A stretch of 64,000 nt of DNA, from assembly GCA_947475715.1 (NCBI GenBank), contig CANJNY010000001.1, positions 1 through 64,000 of the forward strand. Reading direction: 5' to 3'. The DNA comes from Prolixibacteraceae bacterium (lineage in GTDB: Bacteria > Bacteroidota > Bacteroidia > Bacteroidales > Prolixibacteraceae). The position numbers were made by a program, and so were the translations under genes. This document shows, piece after piece, positions 1,144 to 13,390 of the stretch (the stretch's first letter is position 1; every line of letters starts with the position of its first letter). The notes under the pieces are model-generated. The model saw nothing but the letters and a program-made list of their open reading frames with translations. It did no database searches and was not told where the DNA came from.

Positions 1144-1728
1144 ATGGAAAAACTAGTATTTGCTACAAATAACGAGCATAAACTCCGTGAAATTAAGGAG
1201 CTGCTTAATGAAGAATTCGAATTGTTGAGTCTGGACGATATCGGATGTTCTGAAGAGATCCCTGAAACGGGGCCCACCTTAGAGATCAATGCCGCACAGA
1301 AATCCTCCTATATCTGGGATAGGTTTGGTATGAACTGCTTTGCAGATGATACCGGGCTTGAAATTTCCGCATTAAACAATGAACCAGGGGTTTATTCCGC
1401 CAGATATGCTGGTGAGGACAAAAGTGCTGCTGCAAATATGGAGAAAGTACTGGAGAAAATGGCCGGTGAGACCAATCGAAGTGCACAATTCAGATGCGTA
1501 ATATCCTTAGTTATCGATGGGCGGGAAATTCAATTTGAAGGTGTTGTTACCGGTACAATACTTTCCCAGAAACATGGGAAGGATGGATTCGGGTATGATC
1601 CAATCTTCATGCCCGATGGCTACTCTCAATCCTTTGCTGAAATGACGCCAGCCGATAAAAACAACATCAGCCATCGGGGGCGTGCAGTGGAAAAATTAGT
1701 TGCCTATTTGAGGAATTTAAAACATTAA
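1144..1728 (+). CDS. rdgB: XTP/dITP diphosphatase (RdgB/HAM1 family)
   Basis: This protein of 194 residues hydrolyses non-canonical purine triphosphates (ITP, dITP, XTP) to monophosphates and so keeps deaminated purines out of DNA and RNA. The family signatures are present in order: FATNNEHKLREI at the N-terminus, FADDTGLEISAL, PGVYSARYAG, KHGKDGFGYDPIF and SFAEMTPADKNNISHRGRA near the C-terminus. The length is normal for the family. The ATG at 1144 is chosen over 1120 because the protein then begins directly with the conserved strand (MEKLVFATNN) and the -7 box overlaps the upstream candidate. The next gene starts 67 bp downstream on the same strand. Confidence 0.95.
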   Translation: MEKLVFATNNEHKLREIKELLNEEFELLSLDDIGCSEEIPETGPTLEINAAQKSSYIWDRFGMNCFADDTGLEISALNNEPGVYSARYAGEDKSAAANMEKVLEKMAGETNRSAQFRCVISLVIDGREIQFEGVVTGTILSQKHGKDGFGYDPIFMPDGYSQSFAEMTPADKNNISHRGRAVEKLVAYLRNLKH

Positions 1729-1795: not shown

Positions 1796-4105
1796 ATGAG
1801 AATCAAATGGAGAACCCTGATAATTTTAGTCGTTGCAATGTTATTGTCTATTTCAACAATAGCCAATAAATGGCATTCATACTTATCTTATTATCAAATT
1901 ATTGCCATTACCCAAAGTGATCGAAAGATATTTGCGGCCAATGAAAACGGGCTCTTCGCCTGTCAACTTTCAGACCAAAGTTTTGAAACCTATTCACGTG
2001 TGGAAGGGCTCTCCGATTCGGGAATTTCAACAATTTGCTGGTCGACCAGCGCCGGAGGAACTTTAATCGGCTATTCCAATGGAAACCTGGACCTGCTGGT
2101 TGGCGACAAAATTCATAACCTTCCCGATATTAAATTGAAAGGTGGAATTGCAAAAAAATCAATTACTAAAATCCTTTGCGAAGGTGATTTTGCCTGGCTC
2201 AGTTGTGACTTTGGCATTGTTAAGATCAACCTTAAAAAATGGGAAATCGCCGAAACCTGGATCATAGGAGCCGAAGCTTCGACCATTGCGGTAAGAGAAC
2301 TTGCCATGGACGCCCAATATTTCTGGGCTGCAACCGACGCCGGTATTTTTAAAGCAGACAGAAGCAATCCAAATCTTCAGGACTATCACAACTGGATACT
2401 TCAGAGTCAGATTCCGGTGATTCAGAGAAGTTTTAATTCAATTTCGGTAATTAATAACCAGGTTTATACCAGCGATACAGATGGTAAAAGCTCTATGTTT
2501 AACGGATTAATTTGGCAAAATGTATATCAGGAAATTCCTGGAATAAGGAAAATAAACGCATCAGCCTCTTCATTGATAATATTTTGTGACAACCAGATTG
2601 TTCTCATCAAACAGAACAACAAAACGACAATATCGAATTATGGAAGCCTGATTCAAGTGTCATCAACGATTCATCCCTCAGATGCTCTTTATACAAACAC
2701 GGGTGAATTATGGATAGGGGATCATACCTTCGGCCTGATTCACTGCACCCCGGATGGGAGGTATATATCAACTAATCCTTCATCCCCGGCAAATAATAAT
2801 GCAAGCCGACTGACTATTTCAGGCACAAATCTTTATGTGGCTACTGCTTCTGAGGAAAACGAATCCGCAGCCGTTCCTGCAGAAATCCATCGGTTAAAGG
2901 AACAGAATTGGTTCTCAATTAATGAATATACGGCGAATGATTTAGCCGGGTTAACAAATATTACAGGAGTTACTCCATCACCGACAAATGCAGAACATTT
3001 CTGGGCCACAACAAAGGGGAGCGGACTACTTGAATTTAATGGAACAGAAAAAATAAAAGCCTACAATTCGAATAATTCAACACTTGAATCCTATAATGGA
3101 AGTTGTAAAACAGGTGGTTTAAAAATAGATGGTGCAGGAAATTTATGGATTACAAACCCCTCGGTTAAGCATCAGTTACATGTCATCAAACCCGACGGTG
3201 CATTGAAATCCTTAAGTTATCCGGGTATCGATAATCAGTTTGTTACTGCAGGTGAGCTGTTAATTACCAAAACAGATACCAAATGGATCATCGTCAATAA
3301 CTCAGACTTATTTGCGCTTCATACCGGAAGCACCATTGATAATACAACGGATGATCAGTACCGGAAAACCACCGTCAGAAGCAAATTTTCGAACAGTGAG
3401 ACCACTATAATTAAAGGATATAACCAGCTGAACGCGCTCTGCGAAGATCATGATGATTATTTGTGGATTGGAACCGAAAATGGGGTTGTTCTTTACTCCA
3501 ATCCTGAAGCTCTGTTTGGGAACAACGATTTTTACGGAATTCAGCCATCAGTAGATCTTGGTGACGGACTATATCATCCTCTGCTTGATAATCTTACAGT
3601 TACTGCTATAGCTGTTGACGGAGGAAATCGCAAATGGTTTGGAACAGCCAATTCAGGAGTCTTCCTCTATTCTGCTGACGGATCGAAGTTAATTGAGCAC
3701 TTTTATTCGGGCAATTCACCCCTTTTTTCAGATCATATTAATAGTATTGCCATTAACAGTCAAAGCGGGGAGATCTTTTTTGCAACAGAGCGGGGAATAA
3801 TCTCATGGACAGGAGACGCCACCGAAGCTGGAAATGGGTTCCAGAACCTCTATGTCTGGCCAAATCCAGTAAGAGAAAGCTATTTTGGAGATGTAACAAT
3901 TGATGGACTTACAGCCGAATCAACAGTTAAAATAACCGATATAACCGGAAATCTGGTATTTAAGACTAAGTCTAACGGTGGTCGGGCCATCTGGGACGGA
4001 AAGCGACGCGACGGCCAACGGGTAAATACCGGAGTCTATCTGATCTTTTGCTCCGACCGTAATGGAGATCAATCGCGTGTATTAAAATTATTATTTATCC
4101 ATTAA
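1796..4105 (+). CDS. porZ: PorZ-like beta-propeller protein with T9SS C-terminal sorting domain
   Basis: This is a 769-residue exported protein with an N-terminal signal segment (about residues 1-23). Two propeller domains are built from repeats of the two-component-regulator-propeller type, for example ITQSDRKIFAANENGLF, EDHDDYLWIGTENGVVLYS and GGNRKWFGTANSGVFLYS. About the last 85 residues (from LYVWPNPV) form a type-A CTD with the usual PNP, strand-rich and KITDITG segments. In the family, PorZ is a cell-surface component of the type IX secretion system that takes part in attaching sorted proteins to anionic LPS. The N-terminal W-x-S-Y-x-x-Y pattern before the first repeat matches PorZ. 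It is followed 3 bp later by recO, an arrangement suggesting co-transcription. Another surface propeller protein with a CTD remains possible. Confidence 0.75.
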   Translation: MRIKWRTLIILVVAMLLSISTIANKWHSYLSYYQIIAITQSDRKIFAANENGLFACQLSDQSFETYSRVEGLSDSGISTICWSTSAGGTLIGYSNGNLDLLVGDKIHNLPDIKLKGGIAKKSITKILCEGDFAWLSCDFGIVKINLKKWEIAETWIIGAEASTIAVRELAMDAQYFWAATDAGIFKADRSNPNLQDYHNWILQSQIPVIQRSFNSISVINNQVYTSDTDGKSSMFNGLIWQNVYQEIPGIRKINASASSLIIFCDNQIVLIKQNNKTTISNYGSLIQVSSTIHPSDALYTNTGELWIGDHTFGLIHCTPDGRYISTNPSSPANNNASRLTISGTNLYVATASEENESAAVPAEIHRLKEQNWFSINEYTANDLAGLTNITGVTPSPTNAEHFWATTKGSGLLEFNGTEKIKAYNSNNSTLESYNGSCKTGGLKIDGAGNLWITNPSVKHQLHVIKPDGALKSLSYPGIDNQFVTAGELLITKTDTKWIIVNNSDLFALHTGSTIDNTTDDQYRKTTVRSKFSNSETTIIKGYNQLNALCEDHDDYLWIGTENGVVLYSNPEALFGNNDFYGIQPSVDLGDGLYHPLLDNLTVTAIAVDGGNRKWFGTANSGVFLYSADGSKLIEHFYSGNSPLFSDHINSIAINSQSGEIFFATERGIISWTGDATEAGNGFQNLYVWPNPVRESYFGDVTIDGLTAESTVKITDITGNLVFKTKSNGGRAIWDGKRRDGQRVNTGVYLIFCSDRNGDQSRVLKLLFIH

Positions 4106-4108
4106 CCA

Positions 4109-4834
4109 ATGCTGCAAAAAACCAGGGGAATAGTATTACACAGCCTTAAATATGGTGAGTCCGGTCTGATAACAACCATCTATACAGAGGGATTTGGAAG
4201 AATGTCATTCATCATGCAAGGAATCCATGGAAAGAAATCTGCGATCAAAGCAAACCTACTCCGACAGCTTTCCTTACTGGAGATGGAGGTCGATTATAAA
4301 CAAGGAAGAGAATTGCAACGGGTAAGGGAAATAAAAATCAGTACCCCTTTTATTGCATTGCCTTATGAGATCGCGAAATCATCGCAGGCACTCTTTCTTT
4401 CAGAATTATTGCATAAAGTTCTCCGAGAGGAGGAATCACGCCCCGAATTATTTCAATTTCTCTACCATTCCATTCAAGTCCTGGATTTAATGGAGAAAGG
4501 TATTGCCAATTTTCATCTGATATTCTTGATTCAGCTTTCACGGTATCTCGGATTTGAACCAATAAATAATTATTCGGAATCGAACCCATATTTCGATATG
4601 ATGGCGGGGAAATTTGCGATTTCTCCGCCCGACCATCCATGGTTTTTAAAAAATCAGGAGAGCCAGGCCCTTTCACAACTGTTGGGGTTAAATTACCAAA
4701 ATTCAGCAGAGTTTAAACCAAACCAGACATTTAGACCAAAAATACTCCCAATGATCCTGGAGTATTATGGTCTTCATTTAGGGAATAAACTGAATATAAA
4801 ATCTCTTGAAGTGCTCAAATTAATTCTTCATTAG
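4109..4834 (+). CDS. recO: DNA repair protein RecO
   Basis: This is a 241-residue protein of the RecO family, which works with RecR to load RecA at gaps coated with SSB. The N-terminal OB-fold begins with TRGIVLHSLKYGESGLITTIYTEGFGRMSFIMQG, the conserved RecO opening that carries the basic DNA-binding surface. The helical C-terminal part follows, with LSRYLGFEP, the usual RecO helix. The zinc-finger cysteines seen in some family members are absent here, as in many Bacteroidota. The start lies 3 bp after the porZ-like stop, so the two genes are probably translated from one transcript. Confidence 0.92.
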   Translation: MLQKTRGIVLHSLKYGESGLITTIYTEGFGRMSFIMQGIHGKKSAIKANLLRQLSLLEMEVDYKQGRELQRVREIKISTPFIALPYEIAKSSQALFLSELLHKVLREEESRPELFQFLYHSIQVLDLMEKGIANFHLIFLIQLSRYLGFEPINNYSESNPYFDMMAGKFAISPPDHPWFLKNQESQALSQLLGLNYQNSAEFKPNQTFRPKILPMILEYYGLHLGNKLNIKSLEVLKLILH

Positions 4835-4953
4835 CAACTCTTTAGCAAAAAAAAACAGAAACCTGTGAATATTGAAAGGCTCACAAGTTGCCAATCGGAA
4901 TAAAAGGAACAAAAATATTACTACTTTTACAGCCAGCAATTGATTACAATAAA

Positions 4954-6114
4954 ATGAGTTCATCAAAAATTCCAACTTCGAAAAAAAATTCCTTTACGGC
5001 AATACTTGAAATTGCCGAAGAGATGAATGCTATCGACCTGGCTATTCCAATGTCTAATCTTACTTGCCCTGAGAAATTGATTGATCTGGTAAGCAAAAAT
5101 ATGAGACTTGGAAATAATGACTATTCTCCGGTCGAAGGGGTGGAACAATTAAGAGAACAAATTATTGAACTCGTAAACGCCCAAAATAAAACAGCATTTA
5201 ATCCCGATACAGAAATTACAATCACTGCAGGACCTGCACAGGCGATGACTACAGCCATCAGCACTTTTGTCAAGGATGGGGATGAAGTAATTATCTTTGA
5301 ACCGGTACAGGAGTCTTATGCTCCATTCATCGAATTAAATGGGGGCAGACCAATTTTTGTGACCCTGAAACTTCCCGACTTCCGTATCGATTGGGAGGAG
5401 GTTAAGAAGTTAGTAACATCCAAAACAAGGATGATCATTATCAATAATCCTCAAAATCCGATTGGCAGGATTTTCAGTGAGGAAGATATCGATCAGCTGA
5501 AAAGGATGACCTATGGAACACGATTAGTAATCCTGAGCAATGAAGTTTTTGACAACATTGTTTATGACGGTTTAAAATTCCGCAGCCTCGCCTCTGTCCC
5601 TGATCTTGCAGCTAAATGCCTTATCGTTTCAAGTTTTGGTCCGGTTTTTAACATTACCGGTTGGGGGATTGGATATATTTTCGGACCTGAGAAATTGATG
5701 GCCGAATTCAGAAAAATTCAACAATTCCAGGGTTTTAGCGTAAATACACCTGCGCAATATGCATTGGCAGAGTTTTTAAAAGGGGGTCCGGATTTCGATA
5801 CGATATGTGACACATACCATAAAAAACGTGATTTATTTATATCCTCATTAAAAGGGTCAAAATTCGAACTAGTACCTACACAATCAACATTTTACCAGAT
5901 TCTGGATTACAGTAAAATATCTGACGAAACAGATGTTGATTTTGCCTCCCGTCTGATTTTGGAATTCGGTATTGCAACAGTGCCATTCTCCGCATTTCAA
6001 CACGAAAAAACCAAATTCCGACTTTTAAGAATTTGCTTTGCCAAGCCGGACGATCTGCTTATTGAGGCTGCCAAGAAGCTCAATAGTGTACCGGTAACAC
6101 TTCCTCGGTCGTAG
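4954..6114 (+). CDS. Aminotransferase class I/II fold protein lacking the PLP lysine (pseudoenzyme candidate)
   Basis: The overall sequence is a complete fold-type I aminotransferase (386 residues) of the methionine/aspartate aminotransferase group. It shows TAGPAQAMTTAISTF, INNPQNPIGRIF (Asn168 kept) and a C-terminal RICFAKPD with the carboxylate-binding Arg359. The cofactor pocket is not normal. The lysine that should follow SF[SG] is Pro230 (SSFGPVFNITGW), and the Asp and Tyr of the DEVY motif are Asn196 and Phe199 (NEVF). The aromatic residue that stacks on PLP is Gln119 (EPVQESY), and the basic residue after GW is Gly238. I read these from the DNA codons directly. Without the Schiff-base lysine it should not transaminate. 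The ATG at 4954 is used instead of a TTG at 4888; a TACTTTTA -7-like box lies between. It sits between recO and tRNA-Arg. Confidence 0.85.
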   Translation: MSSSKIPTSKKNSFTAILEIAEEMNAIDLAIPMSNLTCPEKLIDLVSKNMRLGNNDYSPVEGVEQLREQIIELVNAQNKTAFNPDTEITITAGPAQAMTTAISTFVKDGDEVIIFEPVQESYAPFIELNGGRPIFVTLKLPDFRIDWEEVKKLVTSKTRMIIINNPQNPIGRIFSEEDIDQLKRMTYGTRLVILSNEVFDNIVYDGLKFRSLASVPDLAAKCLIVSSFGPVFNITGWGIGYIFGPEKLMAEFRKIQQFQGFSVNTPAQYALAEFLKGGPDFDTICDTYHKKRDLFISSLKGSKFELVPTQSTFYQILDYSKISDETDVDFASRLILEFGIATVPFSAFQHEKTKFRLLRICFAKPDDLLIEAAKKLNSVPVTLPRS

Positions 6115-8349: not shown

Positions 8350-9528
8350 CTACGGAATCAACCTAAGCAGTTTCATCATCTTTTTGGCAATATCTGTATT
8401 TTCCATAAAACCGGTAAACTCTTCGGCGCCGGGTCCAAAAGCATAAATCGGAACAGCAATTCCGGTATGTTCCCCTGAGGTATATTTAGCGGTAACCATT
8501 CCGGTTTTATAATCACCCCCATTAATACTCATTCCTCCGGTTTCATGGTCCGCAGTAACAATAATCAGTGTTTCACCGTTTGAAGCAGCAAATTTAAGTG
8601 CGGAACCAATTGCGCGGTCAAAATCGAGTGTCTCCAGAACCACTCCGGGGGTAATATTTTCATGGGCCAGAAAATCAATTTCCGATCCTTCAACCATAAG
8701 GAAAAAACCTTTTTTGCTTTGGGATAACAGACTAATTGCCGTTTCTGTTGCCGGGACAAGCATCTCGCCCCGCTCCGGCATTATTGGATTATGCGATTCG
8801 GCAGTTAATCCGGCCAGTTTTCCTGATTTAACCTTTTGAATATCGGAAATCTTATACAAAACCTGATAACCCTTATCTTTCAATTCATTAGTCAGATTTC
8901 TTCCGTCTTTGCGTTTTTCAAAATTATTTATTCCCCCCCCGATAAAGACATCAATATTTGTTGTCAAAAATTGAGCTGCTATATCCTCATAATTCCCTCT
9001 TGACTCTGTGTGTGCTATAAAACATGCCGGTGTAGCGTGAGTAATGGCGGATGTAGAGACCAGACCGGTTTTAAGCCCCTTCTTTTCAGCCAGCTCCCGA
9101 ATACCTGGAACCACTTTCTTATCAGGATCCACACCAACTGCACCGTTATAGGTTTTAATTCCCGCAGAAAGTGCTGTCGCCCCTGCCGCAGAGTCTGTAA
9201 TATAATCATCTGATGAATTGGTCCTGGAAAACCCAATCTGCTTAAAATTCTCAAGAAAAAGATGCCCCCGGTTAGCAGTCATCGAAGCAAAAACATGCGC
9301 AAGTCCCATCCCGTCACCAATCATCAGGATAATATTTTTAGGACTTTTTTTACTGAATTTCTGCGGGTAATGCGATACCTCGTAGAAAGGACCTCCAGAA
9401 TAAGTCTCTTTTAACGCTTTGTTTTTGGGATCTTTGTACTCCTCCTGGCTATACCCGGAAAAAGAGAAAAGAACAATCAATATACTAACACACTTTAATT
9501 GGTTAATAAAGTTCCGGAAAATTGGCAT
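8350..9528 (-). CDS. Alkaline phosphatase (PhoA family)
   Basis: Numbered from the ATG at 9528 (392 residues), the protein has a signal peptide (about residues 1-28, ending GYSQ) and the full metal and catalytic set of PhoA. Asp72 lies in MIGDGMG and the phospho-acceptor Ser113 in TDSAAGATA. THATP, EIDFLAHEN, TADHETGG and GEHTG supply the zinc and magnesium ligands. It should release phosphate from periplasmic phosphomonoesters. An in-frame ATG at 9588 overlaps the stop of the upstream terC-type gene (TAATG) and would add 20 residues before the signal peptide. That overlap hints at translational coupling, but the shorter form gives the normal export signal. No Pho-box-like site was recognised. 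Confidence 0.92.
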   Translation of the reverse strand: MPIFRNFINQLKCVSILIVLFSFSGYSQEEYKDPKNKALKETYSGGPFYEVSHYPQKFSKKSPKNIILMIGDGMGLAHVFASMTANRGHLFLENFKQIGFSRTNSSDDYITDSAAGATALSAGIKTYNGAVGVDPDKKVVPGIRELAEKKGLKTGLVSTSAITHATPACFIAHTESRGNYEDIAAQFLTTNIDVFIGGGINNFEKRKDGRNLTNELKDKGYQVLYKISDIQKVKSGKLAGLTAESHNPIMPERGEMLVPATETAISLLSQSKKGFFLMVEGSEIDFLAHENITPGVVLETLDFDRAIGSALKFAASNGETLIIVTADHETGGMSINGGDYKTGMVTAKYTSGEHTGIAVPIYAFGPGAEEFTGFMENTDIAKKMMKLLRLIP

Positions 9529-9587
9529 GATAATTACCTTTGAAAAATAGGGGGTGAATACTGGCTCTGACTTTTGAACGGATCGCA

Positions 9588-10355
9588 TTACGTTATATCT
9601 TCCTTGTCAATTAGTTCAGCTTCCAAAGAGGGACGCAGCACGATTGGTTTATGTTTCTTTTGAATCCGCATATTGATCATTTCGACGAGTAATGAGAAAA
9701 AGACAGCGAAGTAAATATATCCCTTGGGAACCTCAACATGAAGCGCTTCAAGAACAAGCATAAATCCGATCAGGATTAAAAAGGAGAGGGCCAGAATTTC
9801 CAGAGTCGGATGATCAGAAATAAATTTACTGATCTTACCGGCAAAAAATATCATAATAAACAGGGAAATAACAACTGCAAGTATCATGATTGGCAAATCA
9901 TGGGTTAATCCAACTGCGGTGAGAATCGAATCAAAGGAGAAAACGATATCCAGAAGGATAATCTGAATGATTACTTTTGACAATACAACCCCTCCTCCCA
10001 GATGACCGGGATCGTGTAAATTCTCCATTTTCGCATGGATTTCTGATGTGCTTTTGGCAAGTAAGAATAACCCTCCTGCCATTAAAATCAGTTCCCGAAT
10101 ACTAAATCCAAGATTGAAAACAGTAAATAGAGGAACTGTCATACTGTTGGTCATCCATGAGATGATTGACAATAAAAGTATCCTGAAAACAAGCGCAATA
10201 CTTAGACCAAGACGGCGGGCATATTGCTGATTATCTTTGGGTAGTTTATTGGTAACAATTGAAATAAAAATGACATTATCGACTCCCAGGACGATTTCCA
10301 AAAAAGTAAGAGTAAAAAGTGCAACCCACGCTTCTGCGTTATAAAAAATCTCCAT
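9588..10355 (-). CDS. TerC family integral membrane protein
   Basis: This 255-residue polytopic membrane protein has about seven hydrophobic helices. The TerC signatures are both present: EIVLGVDNVIF in the first helix (residues 20-30) and LLDIVFSFDSILTAVG in the second half. They carry the paired acidic residues thought to bind a divalent cation. Family members have been linked to tellurite resistance and to manganese export for metal loading of secreted proteins. Here the gene lies directly upstream of a secreted metallo-phosphatase, with the stop overlapping a possible start (TAATG). A role in supplying metal to exported enzymes is therefore plausible, but it is inference. The ATG at 10355 replaces a TTG at 10409. 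Confidence 0.88.
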   Translation of the reverse strand: MEIFYNAEAWVALFTLTFLEIVLGVDNVIFISIVTNKLPKDNQQYARRLGLSIALVFRILLLSIISWMTNSMTVPLFTVFNLGFSIRELILMAGGLFLLAKSTSEIHAKMENLHDPGHLGGGVVLSKVIIQIILLDIVFSFDSILTAVGLTHDLPIMILAVVISLFIMIFFAGKISKFISDHPTLEILALSFLILIGFMLVLEALHVEVPKGYIYFAVFFSLLVEMINMRIQKKHKPIVLRPSLEAELIDKEDIT

Positions 10356-10438
10356 AATCGAACTATAATCCAGGTACAATTTATATTCTAAGATTGTTTT
10401 GATAATCAATGATCAAATATCCCAGATTTTAATACCGT

Positions 10439-10591: not shown

Positions 10592-13390
10592 TTACTTCCT
10601 TTTCTGATTCTCCAGCCGGTATTCCTTCTTCTCCTTTTGATCAATCTTCATATCCTTTTCATCATCAATCAGAGGTGATTCTTTTACAGCCTTCCAGTCA
10701 AATTTGGCATCCAATGGGGTTAAGGCAGTTGCGGGATTAAAAATACGGGAATCTACAGAGACTGCATTGTACGGAGTGTAATCAGGATCTGATTTAAACA
10801 TATCGGCAAAGTCGCTGGCAGCAGCATCATATTGGTTCAAATAAGGCATTCCGAGCACATTCCAGAAGGTCTTAAAAATACTGCCAAAACTGTAATGGAT
10901 CTTAGAAACATAATCCCTCTTAACAAACGGAGAGATCACCATTAAGATACTTCGATGGGCATCAATGTGATCGATTCCATTTTGGGCATCATCCTCAGTA
11001 ATTACAATTGCCATATTCTTCCAATAGGGAGTATGCGAAAGATACTCTACGATACGACCTATTGCCAGATCATTATCTGCCATATAACTCTCCCTAAATG
11101 GGAAACCGGCCTTAGGTCGTTCGTCTGCCCCATGGTCATTCGGAATAATAACAGTGAGAATGGATGGCATTTCAACTTTTGATCCGATCCATTTTTTATC
11201 AAACTCGGCAATAAACTGGTTAACACGAAACTGATCAGGAATCGCCATATTAAAGGTCGGATATGTTTTTGAGGTATTGGCAAACAGAGGCAGTGGTAAC
11301 GGAAAATTGACAAAGTGCTTTAATCCAGTCAGTTTAAAGGAGTCCTCATAAAAGGAGGGCTCAAACATCACACTAAAACCAAAGTTATAGAATTTAACCT
11401 GATTACGGTCAAGGTGTTCCCACATCGATCCGGCTTCATTATAATCTTCAGGATATATGGCGCCGGCTGCACCGTTCATACCAAGGCTTCCGGGGGCCTT
11501 TGATTTGGGATCGTAATTCCGGTTCCCACCATAACTCGCAGGAACACTTGACTCAACCCACTCATTAGGGTAAGTATTTACCAGCCAGCGATGTCCATCG
11601 GCCGAGACATCCGAATCGACATAGAAATTATCTGATATCGCAAATTCTCCGGCCAGTTTAAGGTGATTAGGCATCACCGTGGTGTTGACAACTTTTAAAC
11701 TCTTTTTCCGGTTACTGAAGGTTGCGCCAATCCCATACCGTGCAAGGGTTGAATCCCCCTCACCGTTTTTGATCTGCCCAAATATCTCATCATAAGTTCT
11801 GTTCTCCTTCGAAATAAAAACGAGGTATTTGATCGGTGAACTCTTTTCTCCTCCATAAATTGGAATCGGATTATTCCCCCGTCGTTTCTGAACATCATTA
11901 TAATTTTCTATGCGATAATTATTTGCAATAACCTCTTTGGTCAAACTGGCTAGTGTAGTATCATCCGGAATATTCATGATTAAAACACTTCCCTTCATCA
12001 GATTACCAATGTAGGTTCCCGCTGTAGGTTCGATAAATTGCCTACCGCCATTGGGACCGCTTCCAAAACCTTTGGCATTGCTAACAACCAGGGTTTTACC
12101 ATCAGGAGTCACCTCTACTTTTGCTGGAAACCAACCAACAGGTATATGTCCAATGACTTTCATCGTTGGAATATCAACAACTCCAATCGCATTTACACCC
12201 GATTCTGCAACATAAAGCCTCTTCTGATCAGGCGAAACGGTAAGTCCGAAAGGGATCATTCCCCGAAACTGTTTCAATGCAGGATCCAATTTAAGTGAGA
12301 TTTCAGCTGCGACAGAATCTTTTAACATATCGATCACAGAAATATTATCATTGGAGCCATTACTCACGAAAACATACCGATCGGTAACCGCCAGTGAGTT
12401 CGGACTTGAACCTCCGACAGCCGGAACACCTTCAACAGGCTGACCGACAAGAACTCCGGTCTTAATTTTTGATTGGACAGAGGGATTAACAGGATCTTTC
12501 ACCGAGTAAGACCATACCGAAAAAGATTCAGGTACATTAGGATCACCCAACCCAGGAATATCCATTGAATCAATCCTGATCCCATTTTTCATTGCTTCTG
12601 TTCCAAACCCAAAAGGGGGAAAGCTGAGTGCTTTCTTATAATCCTTCGATGCTTCGATCTCTCCTATTTTGCTATATTCGAACATTCCAACGTTTGCGAC
12701 ATAAACCTTTTTCCCGTCCGGCGAAAGAATAACTCCGAAAGGATACCTTCCGGTCCTGGCACTTGAAATGACCTTCTTTAACCGGGTATCCATAATAATT
12801 AACCGGAAAAGGGTTTGATCGACGGCATAGAGGAACCTGCCATCCTTGCTAAGTTTAAGTTCCCCGATATAGCCATCGGGAGTTTTATCACCCGAACCTG
12901 AAACCGAACAATCTATCGAATCGAGCTTTACACCTGTATCTACCGAAAACAGGTAGATTTTATTCGACTGTCCTCCTGAGACATATACTATTTTATTATC
13001 CGGAGATATGGCAAGTCCCATAAATACAGAGGCTAGGATACCCCTGTCGTTTGATGCACCCGGTGGAACCTGCAAAACGGTTGGATGATCCAGCTTCAGG
13101 TTTTTAATAATCGAGATTGAAATGGGAGCGGTACCCGAATTGGCCGTTACTGCAATAGTTCCGTCCGGGGAAAGCGTTAGTCCATAGGGATGTGGCGCTA
13201 CCTCAACAGATCTTCCATATGGAGTAATTATACGGCCGTTGGGAATCACCGTTTTACCGGATTTATCAATATGCGTATACTCACACCCTGAGGGGGAAGA
13301 GACAACGCTTAAATTCAGATTTGGATGCTGAGCGAATAAGCGACTGTTGATCAAACAGATAAATAAAGACAAAATAAATATTAATTTCAT
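10592..13390 (-). CDS. YncE-type beta-propeller / phosphoesterase fusion, exported
   Basis: This 932-residue protein has a signal peptide ending near residue 20 (LINSRLFAQ). The N-terminal half (about 40-480) is a seven-blade propeller with the YVTN/YncE repeat: PHPYGLTLSPDGTIAVT, AISPDNKIVYVSGGQ and ILSPDGKKVYVANVG. The C-terminal half (about 515-900) belongs to the phosphoesterase/phospholipase C superfamily, beginning IKYLVFISKENRTYDEIFGQ and including VSADGHRWLVN, IIPNDHGAD and VITEDDAQNG, which carry probable metal ligands. The combination is known in Bacteroidota as a bifunctional YncE/alkaline-phosphatase-superfamily protein. Its substrate is not established. It should work in the periplasm or at the surface. 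A TATATTTA sequence upstream of the ATG is a possible -7 box. Confidence 0.85.
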   Translation of the reverse strand: MKLIFILSLFICLINSRLFAQHPNLNLSVVSSPSGCEYTHIDKSGKTVIPNGRIITPYGRSVEVAPHPYGLTLSPDGTIAVTANSGTAPISISIIKNLKLDHPTVLQVPPGASNDRGILASVFMGLAISPDNKIVYVSGGQSNKIYLFSVDTGVKLDSIDCSVSGSGDKTPDGYIGELKLSKDGRFLYAVDQTLFRLIIMDTRLKKVISSARTGRYPFGVILSPDGKKVYVANVGMFEYSKIGEIEASKDYKKALSFPPFGFGTEAMKNGIRIDSMDIPGLGDPNVPESFSVWSYSVKDPVNPSVQSKIKTGVLVGQPVEGVPAVGGSSPNSLAVTDRYVFVSNGSNDNISVIDMLKDSVAAEISLKLDPALKQFRGMIPFGLTVSPDQKRLYVAESGVNAIGVVDIPTMKVIGHIPVGWFPAKVEVTPDGKTLVVSNAKGFGSGPNGGRQFIEPTAGTYIGNLMKGSVLIMNIPDDTTLASLTKEVIANNYRIENYNDVQKRRGNNPIPIYGGEKSSPIKYLVFISKENRTYDEIFGQIKNGEGDSTLARYGIGATFSNRKKSLKVVNTTVMPNHLKLAGEFAISDNFYVDSDVSADGHRWLVNTYPNEWVESSVPASYGGNRNYDPKSKAPGSLGMNGAAGAIYPEDYNEAGSMWEHLDRNQVKFYNFGFSVMFEPSFYEDSFKLTGLKHFVNFPLPLPLFANTSKTYPTFNMAIPDQFRVNQFIAEFDKKWIGSKVEMPSILTVIIPNDHGADERPKAGFPFRESYMADNDLAIGRIVEYLSHTPYWKNMAIVITEDDAQNGIDHIDAHRSILMVISPFVKRDYVSKIHYSFGSIFKTFWNVLGMPYLNQYDAAASDFADMFKSDPDYTPYNAVSVDSRIFNPATALTPLDAKFDWKAVKESPLIDDEKDMKIDQKEKKEYRLENQKRK

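Follow-up and report, generated by a model that had tools for sequence, protein, structure and literature searches.

The locus considered here raises the question of what becomes of an aminotransferase that has kept its reading frame but not the lysine that binds its pyridoxal phosphate (PLP) cofactor, and whether such a gene is decaying or has been maintained for another role. The window, by which we mean the whole 64,000-nucleotide stretch of Prolixibacteraceae DNA that was analysed, carries the following gene:

4954..6114, + strand: pseudo-aminotransferase gene, encoding a 386-aa protein of fold type I and of the YbdL/methionine-aminotransferase type without the PLP lysine, with orthologues in 81/140 Prolixibacteraceae genomes

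The reading frame is full length upon translation, and its start at 4954 is preferred over an upstream TTG at 4888 because homologues begin M-x-x-[ST]-K-[IL]-P. The protein matches the Pfam family Aminotran_1_2 (PF00155, 1e-47), and its closest solved structure by sequence is E. coli YbdL (1u08, 4.4e-81). The AlphaFold2 model (pLDDT 91, pTM 0.90) leads to the same structure, as a Foldseek comparison ranks 1u08 first with a TM score of 0.95 and an rmsd of 1.5. Judged by profile match and model, the protein belongs to the YbdL-like aminotransferase class I/II fold. The top NCBIfam model is the methionine aminotransferase PRK09082 (NF006569), which is matched by 24 of the 24 aligned Prolixibacteraceae members and to which an active Lys-bearing relative (L063) scores 549 bits. 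By this model, however, the protein does not qualify as a methionine aminotransferase, for its 408.7 bits fall just below the cutoff of 420, and the Schiff-base lysine and other cofactor residues are missing.

The pocket sites below are assigned after the AspAT and KAT structures, by their numbering:

5230..5241, + strand: GPAQ (residues 93-96) in place of GATQ, the phosphate-cup Thr (T109) being replaced by A95
5308..5310, + strand: Gln119, at the site of the ring-stacking aromatic (Tyr in the YbdL alignment)
5455..5457, + strand: Asn168 (N194 of AspAT), retained in 100% of the weighted Prolixibacteraceae profile
5539..5550, + strand: NEVF (residues 196-199) in place of DEVY, with Asn and Phe replacing the Asp and Tyr that contact the PLP pyridine N and O3' (YbdL alignment)
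5641..5643, + strand: Pro230 codon, at the site of the PLP lysine (K258 of AspAT) and aligned with the SSFGK lysine of YbdL; non-Lys in 81/81 copies
5665..5667, + strand: Gly238, at the site of the phosphate-binding Arg/Lys after GW (R266 of AspAT); Gly in 73/81 copies
6028..6030, + strand: Arg359 (R386 of AspAT, substrate carboxylate), present in 78/79 Prolixibacteraceae copies that reach this residue and at 97% in the weighted profile

Both P230 and G238 lie in the motif SSFGPVFNITGWG of the translated reading frame. A preliminary description of this DNA had named Q119, N168, N196, F199, P230, G238 and R359, and translation together with the YbdL alignment bears out each of them. Its broader statement that all cofactor contacts had been lost went too far, since S227 (S255 in AspAT), Y57 (Y70*), G93 and N168 are still present, while on the side of loss it had left out A95 and loop 31-34. 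The residues of this substrate loop have been lost in addition to the phosphate-cup Thr. In relatives, G32 of the loop binds the carboxylate of the substrate, and the window's genus has Pro at this position. In the Prolixibacteraceae profile, S226 is invariant and S227 nearly so. The protein thus shares with YbdL (1u08; PRK09082) the fold, approximately 35% identity and the equivalents of N194 and R386, whereas it lacks the PLP lysine, D222, Y225, the stacking aromatic, the phosphate-binding Arg/Lys and the Thr.

These changes are a property of the family rather than of one genome. A search of 140 Prolixibacteraceae genomes (E<1e-80) recovered the 81 copies from 16 of the 23 genera, none of them with internal stops, and several of the carrier genomes consist of one contig each. 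Among the matching records are an uncultured Prolixibacteraceae, Prolixibacteraceae bacterium JC049 and a MAG that bears the label Tangfeifania. Within the window's genus, 17 of 18 genomes carry the gene, with 81-92% identity among the other 16, and the eighteenth (G017) is 78% complete, with recO likewise not found there. Residue 230 is Pro in 64 of the 81 copies, Ala in 8, Thr in 4, Ser in 2, and His, Asp or Arg in one each, and this predominance of Pro indicates that the site is not in free drift, though seven residues occur. Phe occupies position 199 in 76 copies, and at position 196 there are 43 copies with Asp and 33 with Asn. Several genera lack the gene and have an intact recO locus, so that the role of the protein must be dispensable; in ten genomes without the gene, in which recO and porZ are intact, no remnant of it was found behind recO. 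A Lys-bearing YbdL-type copy occurs in Prolixibacteraceae only once, as L051, an extra gene in a genome of the window's genus (G013); the trees place it together with a copy from Flexithrix, and it is probably a case of horizontal transfer or contamination.

Among further copies from the same order outside Prolixibacteraceae, Lys is kept in 74 of 76, and the contrast with 81 of 81 Lys-less copies inside the family is far beyond chance. Likewise, among the best 80 matches in a collection of genome contigs, Lys is missing only in Prolixibacteraceae copies. A tree of 63 proteins places the Prolixibacteraceae copies, without exception, in a single clade (SH-aLRT 99) within Lys-bearing Bacteroidales enzymes, and a second tree of 51 rows agrees on this clade (UFboot 100 / SH-aLRT 98). 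When divergent Bacteroidales copies are added, a wider tree requires at least 6 Lys losses by parsimony, in a fast-evolving Bacteroidales subclade. In the family f97, represented by five copies (L096 and L298-L301), R359 has become Gly and residue 199 is Phe in all, two copies have Ile or Val instead of Lys, the pyridine Asp has changed to Asn in two others that still have Lys, and K238 is retained; from these residues, f97 is apparently a family part-way through the loss. In the related Bacteroidales family f30 (L302-L305), which is very divergent, Lys is replaced by Glu in 4/4 genomes, three of which have the gene adjoining recO; it is a second lineage without the lysine. Single-copy losses were found in f11 (Ile), f56 (Arg), f82 (Arg) and f90 (Glu), each resting on one genome (L083, L311, L318 and L329), several of them draft assemblies. 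Forcing the Lys-less rows of f1, f30 and f97 into one clade was rejected (AU p 2e-5), in a test that assumes a group named beforehand, whereas this grouping was picked after the tree was seen; f1 and f30 might share one Lys loss. Different lineages have lost different pocket residues, the Lys losses having been reached by different routes.

Selection on the Prolixibacteraceae gene was estimated by pairwise Nei-Gojobori comparison within six genera, which gave median dN/dS values of 0.037, 0.039, 0.075, 0.037, 0.041 and 0.036, although dS is near or above 1 in most within-genus pairs, so that single values are rough. In overlapping genera, the median for recO is 0.087, approximately twice the value of about 0.04 for the pseudo-aminotransferase gene; the value of 0.22 over all non-Prolixibacteraceae sequences is inflated by saturation and was set aside. 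The low ratios indicate strong constraint despite the missing catalytic residues. Mean column entropy is 1.30 bits in 79 Prolixibacteraceae sequences against 1.59 in 182 Lys-bearing relatives, a gap due in part to the narrower taxonomic range of the former set, and the lower entropy indicates good conservation of the overall fold. The most-changed columns are those of the cofactor/substrate pocket (230, 238, 31, 33, 34, 56, 94, 95 and 199), the pocket columns that are changed or newly variable comprise 31-34, 57, 94, 95, 119, 196, 230 and 238, and of seven formerly near-invariant columns that are now variable, four lie in the pocket (31, 57, 95 and 119). Erosion is limited largely to this pocket. 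Elsewhere in the protein, E61, G188-T189, I234-N235, Q259, G290, R297 and K352 are newly conserved and may mark a new contact surface.

The protein is therefore a conserved pseudoenzyme in the sense that its catalytic residues are lost, its fold is kept and purifying selection has acted on it over speciation. The preliminary description had proposed an intact fold, no decay and, should many homologues share P230, N196 and F199 under low dN/dS, a conserved pseudoenzyme; the 81 Lys-less copies, the low ratios, the confidently predicted fold and the lack of Lys-bearing close relatives agree with it. It had also held that close relatives with Lys, Asp and Tyr at these positions would speak for sequencing error or recent decay, and such residues are carried only by distant families and L051. 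Its further idea, that the protein may be an amino-acid sensor or a PLP-independent catalyst, is weakened by the variation of pocket-lining residues among Prolixibacteraceae members and by the convergent loss of R359 in f97.

The genomic setting is conserved as well, and upstream of the gene the window contains:

1147..1728, + strand: rdgB/HAM1, non-canonical purine NTP diphosphatase, a conserved upstream neighbour by synteny
1796..4105, + strand: porZ (type IX secretion, A-LPS delivery protein), upstream of recO and conserved; NF052228 597 bits against a cutoff of 260
4109..4834, + strand: recO, directly upstream of the gene in nearly all Prolixibacteraceae members; RecO model 80 bits

Prolixibacteraceae copies lie approximately 80-250 bp downstream of recO on the same strand, with L067 (G030) as an exception to this placement, and in the window a tRNA-Arg (CCT) gene lies downstream; the neighbouring recO and tRNA genes and the full-length frame are as first described. 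Co-transcription with recO is possible on this arrangement. The order rdgB-porZ-recO is kept across Prolixibacteraceae and in some other Bacteroidales families. Farther along the window, a minus-strand row at 8350-9588, 9588-10409 and 10592-13390 consists, by eye, of alkaline-phosphatase-like, TerC-like and beta-propeller/phosphoesterase-like genes.

Many Lys-bearing relatives adjoin a PRK10438-type carbon-nitrogen hydrolase, the expected omega-amidase partner of a glutamine/methionine transaminase; the pairing of glutamine transaminase with omega-amidase has its background in the ketoglutaramate ratchet (PMC6302742). Every hydrolase-adjoining copy has Lys and the other cofactor residues, and unlike the YbdL type, the pseudo-aminotransferase gene does not adjoin an omega-amidase gene. 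Some intact copies (f82, f89) also sit at the recO locus, which therefore probably predates the loss of Lys. With relatedness accounted for, no significant association was found between recO adjacency and Lys loss (3 independent contrasts on supported branches), and the losses in f11, f56, f90 and one f82 copy were not seen adjoining recO, so that the link to recO is perhaps only positional.

On balance, we consider it probable, if by no means secure, that this conserved pseudoenzyme has lost PLP binding and catalysis, has retained the fold and uses its surface to scaffold or regulate a partner protein. The ancestor would have been a YbdL-type methionine/glutamine transaminase at the Bacteroidales recO locus; PLP binding and catalysis would have been lost in the Prolixibacteraceae stem, after which strong purifying selection would have preserved the aminotransferase fold. 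The protein probably holds no PLP and probably has a protein partner, the most likely non-catalytic working mode being one in which its surface serves as scaffold or regulator of another protein, and by analogy with its relatives it would be a dimer. Weighing against this reading are the absence of the gene from several Prolixibacteraceae genera, the missing association of recO adjacency with Lys loss and the retention of N168, R359, S226 and S227, with which a ligand pocket may persist. This retention is the basis for regarding the protein as a ligand sensor, in which the PLP-free pocket would bind a carboxylate (an amino or keto acid) via R359 and N168 and thereby change the shape of the protein and the activity of its partner. 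The weighted-profile frequencies of these two residues and the near-complete conservation of the serines fit this idea, which we nevertheless regard as rather unlikely: positions 31-34, 57, 94, 95, 119, 196 and 230 vary between genera, G32 is Pro in the window's own genus, the convergent f97 has Gly for R359, and R359 and N168 may be structural. That the gene is simply decaying, or is a sequencing or assembly artefact, might be suggested by the loss of Lys alone and by its absence from several genera; 81 genomes, no stops and a dN/dS of about 0.04 rule this out and leave it a negligible chance.

Another possibility is that the protein is the inactive subunit of an active PLP enzyme, an arrangement made conceivable by the location of fold-type-I active sites at the dimer interface. 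SPT1/LCB1 of serine palmitoyltransferase is such a fold-type-I subunit, without PLP lysine and conserved by selection (PMC6148460), and the two proteins are alike in being Lys-less and under selection. SPT1/LCB1, however, belongs to another subfamily (alpha-oxoamine synthase) and has the active partner LCB2, whereas no consistent Lys-bearing partner of the pseudo-aminotransferase's subfamily is present in the same genomes. GcvPA of the two-subunit glycine decarboxylase is a further Lys-less fold-type-I subunit, paired with GcvPB, but around the pseudo-aminotransferase gene there is no sign of a gcv context. To our knowledge, most of the known Lys-less fold-type-I proteins serve as the inactive subunit in a PLP complex that is itself active; a limited search of the open-access literature for a described Lys-less, stand-alone YbdL-type family returned SPT1-type subunits only. 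The window's genome does encode a Lys-bearing paralogue with intact residues, 27% identical, but this is found in just 10 of the 140 Prolixibacteraceae genomes, the other aminotransferases of the window's genome are even more distant, and the neighbourhood comparison revealed no active partner gene beside the pseudo-aminotransferase gene. An obligate active paralogue was rejected as partner, with the best candidate in 10/140 genomes and a YbdL-type second copy only in G013, and we consider the subunit model as a whole improbable. Catalysis without a Schiff-base lysine, either with bound PMP or independently of PLP, has a precedent in ColD-type sugar 3-dehydratases (ColD, CDP-6-deoxy-hexulose 3-dehydratase E1), fold-type-I enzymes that use PMP with a conserved His in place of Lys, and it could be linked to the single copy with His230 and the many with D196. 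Unlike in ColD, residue 230 is mostly Pro (His in 1/81), the range of P, A, T, S, H, D and R at this site offers no common acid/base, the phosphate-binding Arg/Lys is Gly in 73/81 copies and T109 is missing; with the phosphate cup destroyed, catalysis with PMP is unlikely, and we give Lys-free catalysis in general very little credence.

Returning to the pseudoenzyme with a surface role, the combination of a fold under selection, lineage-specific pocket remodelling and recurrent losses is most simply accounted for by a second surface role that preceded the loss of catalysis. We tentatively suggest, as one possible history, that the recO-locus transaminase gained a second, non-catalytic function before PLP was lost and that several families then dropped catalysis, each on its own, so that what is left is a stand-alone regulator or scaffold of aminotransferase fold without PLP, possibly in recombination or type IX secretion, without an active partner subunit. 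If true, this would be a stand-alone, family-wide case with repeated losses in relatives, in which the change from enzyme to pseudoenzyme can be observed stepwise. Any label 'methionine aminotransferase' placed on this Prolixibacteraceae locus would also be wrong, as would metabolic models built on it, and isolates such as strain JC049 (L090), in which a copy is present, make the role of the protein testable.
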